Shown here: positions 25,578 to 38,675 of the stretch, in pieces
How the letters are laid out: every line of letters starts with the position of its first letter
Position numbering within the stretch: the stretch's first letter is position 1
NCBI GenBank assembly: GCA_028684065.1
Contig: JAQUGO010000005.1
Span: 1-64,000 of the forward strand
Direction: 5' to 3'
From: Sulfurospirillaceae bacterium
Lineage (GTDB): Bacteria > Campylobacterota > Campylobacteria > Campylobacterales > Sulfurospirillaceae
DNA: 64,000 nt
Made by a program: the position numbers and the translations under genes
The notes under the pieces: model-generated
Databases searched by the model: none
What the model was told of the DNA's origin: nothing
What the model saw: only the letters and a program-made list of their open reading frames with translations

Positions 25578-25964
25578 ATGGAGCAATTACGTGATATTAA
25601 AGGCTTGGTTGAAATTCCTTTTCCCACGCTTTGGCTCATCATCGCCGCTCTTGTCGTGGTGTGCCTTCTGCTTCTTGGAGCATCTCTTTGGTACCGTTCC
25701 CATCAGCGCAAAAAAGCGCACAGTGTGAGAGCAAAAGCACTTCTTGCGTTGAAGCAGATGGACTTTAGCGATGCCAAAGCAGCGGCGTACTGTTTTACCT
25801 ACAATGGTTACCTAGTACTGGGCGAAAACTCTTTACATGTAAAGAATTTTGAGACGATTGTGCAAGACCTAGAAGCGTACAAATTTAAAAAAGAAGTTCC
25901 TTCGTTGGATGAAGTGATGACGCGTCGCATGCAAGCGTTTATCAAAGAGGTTTCTCATGTTTAG
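25578..25964 (+). CDS. Small membrane-anchored protein of the Bat operon (DUF4381-like)
   Basis: A 128-aa protein with one membrane segment (residues ~15-38, TLWLIIAALVVVCLLLLGASLWY) and a cytoplasmic helical part (KAHSVRAKALLALKQMDF). Position and layout match the DUF4381 proteins between DUF58 and BatA genes. The ATG at 25578, one base past the upstream stop and with AGGGG ahead, is the start; longer in-frame versions lie inside the DUF58 gene. It overlaps batA by 8 bases. It contains one exact TTACATGTAA site (25843). Confidence 0.75.
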   Translation: MEQLRDIKGLVEIPFPTLWLIIAALVVVCLLLLGASLWYRSHQRKKAHSVRAKALLALKQMDFSDAKAAAYCFTYNGYLVLGENSLHVKNFETIVQDLEAYKFKKEVPSLDEVMTRRMQAFIKEVSHV

Positions 25965-31528: not shown

Positions 31529-32662
31529 ATGGGCAAAACGATAGCAATAATTTTTTGTGCTATGTTACTTAGTATAGGGTTAAATGGTGCGGATTTTTCA
31601 AAAATGGCAAGTGGTGAGCCTGAGCTTATTCAAAAAGGTGAAACGAAGATGTGGTGTCCTGTTTGTGGGATGAATTTAAAGATGTTTTACAAAACATCTC
31701 ATGCTGTTGTCTTAAATGATAACAGACAAATCCAATACTGTTCAATTCGTTGTTTAGCCGCAGAGTGGCCAGCTATTGAAGGTAAAGTATCTAAGATTTT
31801 AGTGACCGATATCAAAAGTGAAAAACTTGTTGATGCCAAAAAAGCTTATTATGTGGTAGGCTCTAAGATACCAGGAACTATGAGTATGGTCAGCAAACTT
31901 GCCTTTGAGCATGAAGCTGATGCTCAAACCTTTGCTAAAGAAAATGGCGGCAAAGTGGTCAGTTTTGATGTAGCCTTTGCACAAGCTAAAGAGTCTTTAA
32001 AAGAGGATGTTGATGCGTTTGTTAAGAAAAAACAAAAGGGCATGTACCCAATGGGTGAGAAGATTTACACTAAAGCATGTCAAAAAGATGCCATACATGT
32101 GCATGAATTTAATACCATTAGTGAACTCAAAGCGAATCTTAAAAAGACAAAAGTATGCGGTGAATTAAACGAACAAGAGCTTCAAGCGGTAGGATTGTAT
32201 CTTTGGGAAATTCTACGCTTTGAAGAGCATCATAGTCATGCTACAGCCATTCATGTAGGTGATGATGAAAAATGCCCAGTATGCGGTATGTTTGTAGCCA
32301 AATACCCACGTTGGGCGGCACGATTGAGTTACCAAGAGGGCGATAAAAAAATAGATTTAGCCTTTGATGGTGTCAAAGATTTGTTGAAGTTTTACCACAA
32401 CCCTACAAAATGGGGTAAATATACTAAACATACTGACGCTGAGATAAATGTTTTGGTAACAGATTATTACACACAAGAAGCGATGGATGGCAAAAAAGCG
32501 TTTTATGTCATTGGTAGCGATACCTATGGCCCGATGGGAAAAGAGTTTATCCCCTTTAGTTCTTTAAAAAGTGCCGAAACATTCTTAAAAGACCACAAAG
32601 GCACTAAAATTCTAGAGTTTTCTAAGATTGAAGAAACTCTAGTCTACGCACAAGATAAATAA
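31529..32662 (+). CDS. Double NosL-domain protein with degenerate cytochrome c-like centre
   Basis: A 377-aa secreted protein (signal ~20 residues, MLLSIGLNGADF). Two NosL-like copper-binding halves are visible: WCPVCGMNLKMFYKTSHAVV (~45-65) with a CSIRC segment, and KCPVCGMFVAKYPRWAARLSY (~250-270), both using CxxCGM. Between them (~170-235) GEKIYTKACQKD...ELNEQELQAVGLYLWE follows cytochrome c helix layout without a CxxCH motif. NosL carries copper for nitrous-oxide reductase, but no nos genes are in view. Copper delivery to another periplasmic enzyme is possible. A pair of structured repeats follows immediately. Confidence 0.82.
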   Translation: MGKTIAIIFCAMLLSIGLNGADFSKMASGEPELIQKGETKMWCPVCGMNLKMFYKTSHAVVLNDNRQIQYCSIRCLAAEWPAIEGKVSKILVTDIKSEKLVDAKKAYYVVGSKIPGTMSMVSKLAFEHEADAQTFAKENGGKVVSFDVAFAQAKESLKEDVDAFVKKKQKGMYPMGEKIYTKACQKDAIHVHEFNTISELKANLKKTKVCGELNEQELQAVGLYLWEILRFEEHHSHATAIHVGDDEKCPVCGMFVAKYPRWAARLSYQEGDKKIDLAFDGVKDLLKFYHNPTKWGKYTKHTDAEINVLVTDYYTQEAMDGKKAFYVIGSDTYGPMGKEFIPFSSLKSAETFLKDHKGTKILEFSKIEETLVYAQDK

Positions 32663-32672
32663 TAGCAACAAG

Positions 32673-32748
32673 CCTCTGCCTCGCAAGAGGCAAGCTTTAG
32701 TGCCACAGCGGGCATAGCGTAGGTTTTAGGCTTTGCCTAAAAACCGTG
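32673..32748 (+). repeat. Structured intergenic repeat, copy A
   Basis: A ~76-nt unit. Hairpin 1 is GCCTC-GCAA-GAGGC (GNRA loop); a short GCC/GGC pair lies in the middle; hairpin 3 pairs GGTTTTAGGC with GCCTAAAAACC with one extra A. Copy B (32761-32834) repeats it with changes that keep the pairing, e.g. GCCTT-GAA-AAGGC in hairpin 1. It could encode an RNA element or a mobile repeat (REP/MITE-like). The tandem pair sits between the NosL-like gene and a convergent gene. Confidence 0.7.
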
Positions 32749-32760
32749 GTATAAAGTAAA

Positions 32761-32834
32761 CCTCTGCCTTGAAAAGGCAAGCTTTAGCGCCCTAGTGGCT
32801 AACGTAGGTTTTCAGGCTTTGCCTAAAAACCGTG
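32761..32834 (+). repeat. Structured intergenic repeat, copy B
   Basis: A second ~74-nt copy whose start lies 88 bases after that of copy A. Hairpin 1 is GCCTT-GAA-AAGGC; the middle GCC-GGC pair is present; hairpin 3 pairs GGTTTT and AGGC with GCCT and AAAACC around one C/A mismatch. Both copies end in CCGTG. Confidence 0.7.
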
Positions 32835-32847
32835 TAAAAATAATAAA

Positions 32848-34014
32848 TCAAAAGGGATGAGGTAGCTCAAAGCTATAGCCTTGAAAGAGCTTAAATCCGA
32901 AGGCTTGAGCCGCTTCAGTTGATTTTGAGGAGTTAATGTGGGTCGCAATGCATTGAGCTCCCAATTTTTTAGCAGCATCTAAAAGAGCCAATGCTTTTGT
33001 TTTTGCATGTTCATCAATCTCAAGATTCCGGATGATATCGCCGTGTACTTTTATATATGAGAGACTTTGTGCAGGAAAACATGCAAGGATGGATGCATCT
33101 TCGACGTTATCTAAAGCCGTCGCAATACCTACATGTTTAAACTGTTGAATCGCATCTAAAATGACAGATAAATGTTCTGTCTCTTCGCATTGAATCTCAA
33201 TAATGATATTTTGCTGAGCAAAGGTATGAATTAAAAAAGCCATTCTATCTGAATCCCCTAAATCACAAGAAGAGAGGTTGAGTGCAAGAGGCTCTTTTTT
33301 CAGAGTAAGAAAGTGCTTAATCGTATTAGCACTAACGCTTAAAAGGGTATCGAAGAATTTTTTTTCTCGCGCGATTTTAAGAAAAAGCTTTGGGGATTGA
33401 AGTCCACTATAACACTCCAAACGTAAAAGGGATTCATAATAGATCACATGAAGATTTTTGTCGACAATGGGCTGAAAATCGAATTGAATTTGCTTTTCGG
33501 CAATAGCTTGATCGACTAGCTGTGCGATTTTTTCTTCACTTTCTTCCATTAAAGTATTTGCAAATTCTGAATATGTTACGAAAAGTTGTTCTTCGGCTTT
33601 TGCAACTAAAAGAGCCTTTTGTGCTTTTTGAATGGGTTTAATATGGTCAAAGCTAATACCAATGCGAAAAGAGGGAGAAATTAACACATCGTGATACGTA
33701 TAGCTTTGCTCTTTGAGGACATCCAAGAGAACAAAGATGATTTTTTCCATTGTTGAGAGTTCAAATGTTTGATCCAATAAAAGAATAAATTGATCATTTT
33801 TAAAGCGAAAAAGCTCCATTTCATGAAGCTGTGCGAAGCTAAGCAATGCTTTGGCAAAGGAGCATAATATAAAATTACCGCCCTCATCACTATGAGTTAG
33901 ATTAATTTGCTTAAAATTTCTAATATCAATTAAAAAAAGTTTTGGATGTTTACATGTTAGTAAATATTCATCGAGTGCCGTGGAAGATTTGAGTGTGGTT
34001 AAGGCATCCTTCAT
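32848..34014 (-). CDS. Degenerate GGDEF-EAL protein (probably catalytically dead)
   Basis: A 388-aa cytoplasmic protein with a GGDEF-like domain (~25-145) and an EAL-like domain (~165-388). The GGDEF motif position reads FKNDQF, so cyclase activity is not expected. The EAL signature is ESLLRL. The metal-site DDFGTG has become DNVEDA, and the AEGVET segment reads ATHINS, so key phosphodiesterase residues are lost. It is more likely a c-di-GMP sensor or protein-binding relic. Its start overlaps the mobA stop (ATGA), placing it in the leuC-mobA operon. Confidence 0.85.
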   Translation of the reverse strand: MKDALTTLKSSTALDEYLLTCKHPKLFLIDIRNFKQINLTHSDEGGNFILCSFAKALLSFAQLHEMELFRFKNDQFILLLDQTFELSTMEKIIFVLLDVLKEQSYTYHDVLISPSFRIGISFDHIKPIQKAQKALLVAKAEEQLFVTYSEFANTLMEESEEKIAQLVDQAIAEKQIQFDFQPIVDKNLHVIYYESLLRLECYSGLQSPKLFLKIAREKKFFDTLLSVSANTIKHFLTLKKEPLALNLSSCDLGDSDRMAFLIHTFAQQNIIIEIQCEETEHLSVILDAIQQFKHVGIATALDNVEDASILACFPAQSLSYIKVHGDIIRNLEIDEHAKTKALALLDAAKKLGAQCIATHINSSKSTEAAQAFGFKLFQGYSFELPHPF

Positions 34015-38628: not shown

Positions 38629-38675
38629 AAAAAAGCCTCTTCGTTCTTTACATGTAAAGAGGAAGAGGCTTTTTT
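38629..38675 (-). terminator. Terminator of the carrier gene
   Basis: The outer 14-bp stem (38629-38642 with 38662-38675) carries A6/T6 ends usable on both strands. The loop contains CTTTACATGTAAAG (38646-38659), which is itself a perfect palindrome with the recurrent TTACATGTAA. It lies 26 bases downstream of the minus-strand carrier gene. Confidence 0.85.

Follow-up and report, generated by a model that had tools for sequence, protein, structure and literature searches.

The tandem repeats found in the window (the whole stretch of 64,000 nucleotides that was analysed) are members of a large, dispersed family of short folded elements in sulfur-cycling bacteria related to Campylobacter. The best reading of this family, to which we assign a probability of roughly 0.55, is a small non-autonomous mobile element carried as an RNA leader. 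The family is real and widespread, is specific to Campylobacterota as far as searched, and is undescribed within the open-access literature covered by our non-exhaustive search (a search of PMC2267715 for these genera gave no passage). Briefly, a putative enzyme acting in trans would copy the element, and the lasting copies would mainly be those transcribed as a 5' leader or as intercistronic RNA, where the folded module and its A-rich tail would separate the ribosome-binding site from structure or translation upstream of it.

The repeat pair in the window and the fold of the family

Two copies of the structured repeat (class 1) lie in tandem on the forward strand of the window. Copy 1 (32674-32749) was identified with the covariance model R1 (83.5 bits) and by BLAST against relatives, and copy 2 (32762-32835; 85.7 bits with R1) follows about 87 nt further on. 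As the sequence-only reading had described, two copies of about 75 nt are present here, each with a first hairpin, a GCC/GGC pair and a GGTTTT...AAAACC hairpin, the last interrupted by a single bulge in copy 1 and by a single C.A mismatch in copy 2; the second-hairpin pattern is matched twice in the window against 0.01 expected. Hairpin 1, the family's helix 1, is formed by TGCCTC-GCAA-GAGGCA in copy 1 (32677-32692) and by TGCCTT-GAA-AAGGCA in copy 2 (32765-32779), so the change from GCCTC/GAGGC to GCCTT/AAGGC indeed preserves pairing. The middle stem of copy 1 (GCC/GGC, 32702-32713) corresponds to family helix 2. Its loop takes part in a knot of two base pairs that the earlier reading did not include, and that is likewise compensated between the copies: GC at 32708-32709 pairs with GC at 32717-32718 in copy 1 (columns 43-44 with 52-53), and GT at 32795-32796 pairs with AC at 32802-32803 in copy 2. 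The GTAG motif and hairpin 3 (helix 4) occupy 32719-32745 in copy 1, with arms at 32722-32731 and 32735-32745, and 32804-32831 in copy 2, with arms at 32807-32817 and 32821-32831. By reading the sequence 3' of hairpin 3 in the window copies, we saw no T-run of the kind expected for an intrinsic terminator.

The pair is flanked by a NosL-domain gene upstream (31529-32662, forward strand) and a GGDEF/EAL gene downstream (32848-34014, reverse strand), which converge on it. The convergent setting noted before is thus true of the window pair, but it is a minority context in the family (21 of 124 loci). Single-copy folding is modest, with z values of -2.32 and -1.26 for the two window copies, so the case cannot rest on this pair alone and takes its strength from covariation across the family.

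The element of about 75 nt consists, in order, of hairpin 1, a conserved AAGCTTTAG linker, the small knotted middle stem, CGTAG, hairpin 3, CGTG and an A-rich tail. In the alignment of 27 copies the core starts with TCTGCC and ends with CGTG, and CGTAG precedes hairpin 3 in nearly all of them. Among 63 distinct copies, 95.3% of cells are paired (96.4% in helix 1 and 92.9% in helix 2, the middle stem), and 16 of 22 pairs are changed on both sides, as are 10 of the 11 pairs of helix 4 (hairpin 3). These copies have a covariation score of 0.483; shuffles give 0.155 (sd 0.009), and sliding the partners yields no more than 0.132. Four helices are present in the family when the knot is counted; unsupervised mutual information recovers hairpins 1 and 3 together with a pair in the middle-stem loop, which is the small knot. 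At its columns 44-52, the 63 rows as aligned show CG in 38, UA in 14, UG in one and other combinations in 10; several of these ten unpaired rows are short variants in which the column is displaced by the position of the gaps. The strong covariation upholds the proposal, made from the window alone, of selection on RNA or DNA structure.

The fold is conserved on one strand. G.T wobbles outnumber A.C combinations by 76 to 14, which identifies the folded strand as the element strand; for most anchored genes downstream, this strand is the sense strand as well. Furthermore, a leader common to four species, upstream of a gene that we take to be MetX-like (this and the other downstream gene names, NosL and GGDEF/EAL excepted, are presumptive, as assigned from sequence), carries hairpin 1 as TGCCTC/GAGGCA in two species and as TGTCTC/GAGACA in the other two. 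Compensation at an orthologous leader shows that the structure is kept in place, beyond what circulates in a mobile pool.

Distribution of the family and gain of copies at new sites

Copies are dispersed within and among genomes. Of 60 related genomes searched by BLAST with copy 1, 25 gave a match, namely every one of the 24 in the genus plus a single genome from another family, and the covariance model detected the family in 24 of 24 Sulfurospirillum-type genomes. This model, R1, was built from alignment A1 of 27 copies and has 75 model positions; the alignment omits 10 of the 37 distinct copies found, which were shortened, deviant or near-identical. The sequence-only reading was to be refuted by a lack of other copies in the genome and of covariation; this refutation fails, as covariation is strong and the source genome yields 27 matches up to E 1. 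Two close relatives have 59 and 58 copies. Across the order, matches at E 0.01 or better occur in 130 of 398 genomes and in 25 of 87 genera; the weak ones among them (E 1e-4 to 1e-2) may have arisen by chance. As 12 candidates per genome were scored, copy numbers there are floors. Outside Sulfurospirillaceae, 54 genomes match at E below 1e-6. Named records with the element belong to Sulfurospirillum, Sulfurimonas, Sulfuricurvum and unclassified Campylobacterales and Helicobacteraceae assemblies, and a pattern search of genome contigs returned 52 stretches, all titled Campylobacterota except one 'Proteobacteria bacterium' isolate. Carriage on phages, plasmids or viral contigs was rejected, as searches with one exact pattern or one consensus each gave no match among them. 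Membership of a known RNA family was also rejected, with no Rfam match in the window at gathering and none up to E 1 in ten loci.

Comparison between genomes revealed that copies are gained at new sites. The two close relatives have about 50 copies in common, and 9 and 8 of their 59 and 58 copies, paired by position only, are not shared. Among 11 loci compared between genomes, a clean empty site could be read at three; at the rest, both genomes had an element, the copy had been replaced, tandem changes were seen, or the flanks did not match. In the three filled/empty pairs, the insert measures about 85-130 nt and ends just 5' of an AAAGG-type ribosome-binding site. No target-site duplication was seen in these three pairs, whose flanks are too diverged (up to about 10% near the sites) for junctions exact to the base. 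Copies are also replaced: at one shared site (G016:279225; L300 and L320), where the two genomes are 98.2% identical in the surrounding region, hairpin 3 is different along its full length in both arms, suggesting that a copy was replaced or converted. As for the window pair, it is a tandem insertion specific to its lineage, set in a convergent spacer with no anchored start site; the element is missing from the fetched stretch at 19 orthologous NosL loci elsewhere in the genus. Occupancy is also patchy at leaders of genes we take to be acs-like (acetyl-CoA synthetase-like) and rplL-like. Seven of 30 acs-like loci have the element in this position, all from Sulfurospirillum and in different versions, with one weak match (E 0.009) among the seven; the upstream DNA of one of the 30 (L350) lies outside the stretch. 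For the rplL-like leader the count is 2 of 29 loci, from two families.

Several related arrangements were observed around the copies. The source genome contains tandem element triplets (L154-L156; L146) with a period of about 85-95 nt, one set being three near-identical copies. It also holds a second, 59-nt class (L152-L161, e.g. L153 1501-1559), with a GCACC..GGTGC hairpin and a TGGG..CCCA stem in its 5' half and the same TTARCGTAG plus hairpin 3 end as the main family; the two classes may share a mobiliser. Extra palindromic hairpins flank about a third of copies, AGACTTCTTGCAAAACTGCAAGAAGTCT before and AGAGTTCTGCAAGAACTCTAATAAAA after (L192, L213, L226, L231), at 44 and 43 of 132 loci versus 21.9 and 15.3 in shuffles. 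They are roughly inverted copies of each other and give a modular long form. Another palindrome, TTTACATGTAAA, is over-represented in the window (25832-25843 and 38647-38658; 2 versus 0.00 expected) and at many loci is often found near elements and inside genes.

Sense placement in front of ribosome-binding sites

The interspersed repeats known from bacteria are for the most part tolerated in 3' spacers or between convergent genes. At 124 loci of the present family, the element lies between co-directional genes in sense in 53 cases and in antisense in 16, between convergent genes in 21 and between divergent genes in 18; 8 loci are at contig edges and 8 inside script-called ORFs. Copies often stand in sense immediately 5' of Shine-Dalgarno sequences. 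In 45 of 140 loci, a start codon accompanied by a Shine-Dalgarno-like sequence lies 15-32 nt past the 3' end; on the opposite strand, such a start lies equally far past the 5' end in 5 of 140. Collapsing similar flanks leaves the asymmetry in place (31 versus 3 of 82), and the named collection taken by itself shows it too (12 versus 1 of 36 loci). Tight anchoring concerns only about a third of loci, and the window pair is not among them. The bias relative to the replication strand is weak, with 36 of 59 and 36 of 58 copies co-oriented if the origin is at base 1.

One explanation for this placement is a neutral parasitic repeat, whose proximity to start codons would reflect where short gaps tolerate insertion, or the target preference of an enzyme. 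Upstream gaps are indeed often short too, and tandem arrays and decayed copies are common. In a position test on the 64 loci where both ends of the gap are known, 28 have the start in the 15-32 nt range, against 11.2 predicted by uniform placement in the same gaps, and none of 100000 simulations gave such a result. Together with the strong sense bias and the stems kept by in-place compensation at an orthologous site, this count speaks against neutrality, which we regard as possible but rather unlikely.

The same placement could be expected of a classical cis-regulatory RNA, that is, a riboswitch-like leader sensing one signal for a regulon. The covarying knotted fold on the sense strand, its adjoining of Shine-Dalgarno sequences and its preservation at orthologous leaders of several genes all agree with such a role. 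The downstream genes, however, are of very diverse kinds, including what we presume from sequence to be housekeeping genes such as acs, rplL, dnaK, rnc and ftsH, so no single ligand or pathway fits. Nor do the loci share one gene set or a conserved orthologous position, as the acs-like (7/30) and rplL-like (2/29) leaders illustrate; moreover, many copies have no sense gene downstream and ten loci are without an Rfam match up to E 1. A sensor of one signal is therefore very unlikely.

We thus prefer the mobile element carried as an RNA leader, and infer the leader role from the sense placement and the one-strand fold. A stronger version may be considered, although we find it doubtful: a mobile translation-initiation leader, in which a self-spreading RNA module would be repeatedly installed before the ribosome-binding sites of housekeeping genes by putative start-region-targeting machinery, and would set initiation independently of upstream genes. 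A family placed in sense at a fixed distance from start codons, and having a knotted fold that covaries, would offer a natural case of a mobile element that rewires translation leaders. As each genome has dozens of copies and close species provide filled/empty pairs, the effect on expression can be measured directly.

The putative mobiliser and comparison with known systems

The GTAG at the foot of hairpin 3, present in nearly all copies, suggests a RAYT, and a RAYT link had been hinted at in the sequence-only reading. According to this explanation, the elements would be REP-type repeats mobilised by a RAYT (Y1 HUH) transposase, GTAG plus hairpin 3 would be the REP, and selection would act on single-stranded DNA folding during transposition. 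A Y1_Tnp gene occurs in 23 of 24 genomes of the genus, and two are present in the source genome, scoring 72.2 and 75.7 bits against the RAYT model, short of the cut-off of 80 set for it. Nevertheless, the elements do not lie beside Y1 genes: none was found in 32 fetched stretches, except one copy 4.7 kb away and one 20-bit match, and none in five further stretches, two of them around canonical RAYTs. The copy at 4.7 kb belongs to the source genome. The canonical RAYT genes of the order (L400 1356-2298 and L401 1387-2057) are flanked by palindromes of their own, CTCGTTCCCACGG.. and CTCGTTCCATATCTCC.., which are unrelated to the present family. In addition, PF01797 is present in 31 of the 54 element-rich genomes outside Sulfurospirillaceae and absent from 23. 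As PF01797 alone is an incomplete detector, having missed two canonical RAYTs that NF047646 found, the 23 negative genomes were also searched with the latter, giving no match in 19, fragments only in 2 and a full match in 2. RAYT as the mobiliser, the link hinted at earlier, is supported neither by gene flanks nor by presence across genomes, and we consider this explanation unlikely. Since the elements lie away from RAYT genes and occur in genomes with no detected RAYT, we do not file the family under RAYT-REP. Without a known mobiliser, the family points to an undescribed mobility route in Campylobacterota.

GTAG repeats have been reported from epsilon-division bacteria, and REPs are described as lying mainly downstream of genes (PMC3733652). 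The present family shares with GTAG-type REP/REPIN sequences the GTAG at a palindrome's foot, intergenic copies that are both dispersed and in tandem, and stems that vary by compensation. A GTAG REP is a single palindrome of 20-40 bp, whereas the present element has about 75 nt, three hairpin stems and a knot. Unlike RAYT-associated REPs, it is not found beside RAYT genes and occurs in genomes without a detected RAYT, and it lies 5' of genes in sense rather than mainly downstream.

The pneumococcal BOX, RUP and SPRITE repeats, as described in PMC3049150, are modular, structured, non-autonomous intergenic repeats that can be co-transcribed, and they are over-represented between convergent genes; BOX and RUP carry terminal inverted repeats and target duplications. 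The present family shares with them the modular, structured and non-autonomous character and the tandem modules. The 75-nt core, with its TCTGCC start and CGTG end, does not show terminal inverted repeats as in BOX and RUP, and its bias is towards start sites instead of convergent spacers. Finally, the family resembles riboswitch-type leaders in its covarying fold, its sense orientation and its position next to the ribosome-binding site, but differs from them in having neither a conserved gene set nor a fixed orthologous position, and in spreading to new sites.
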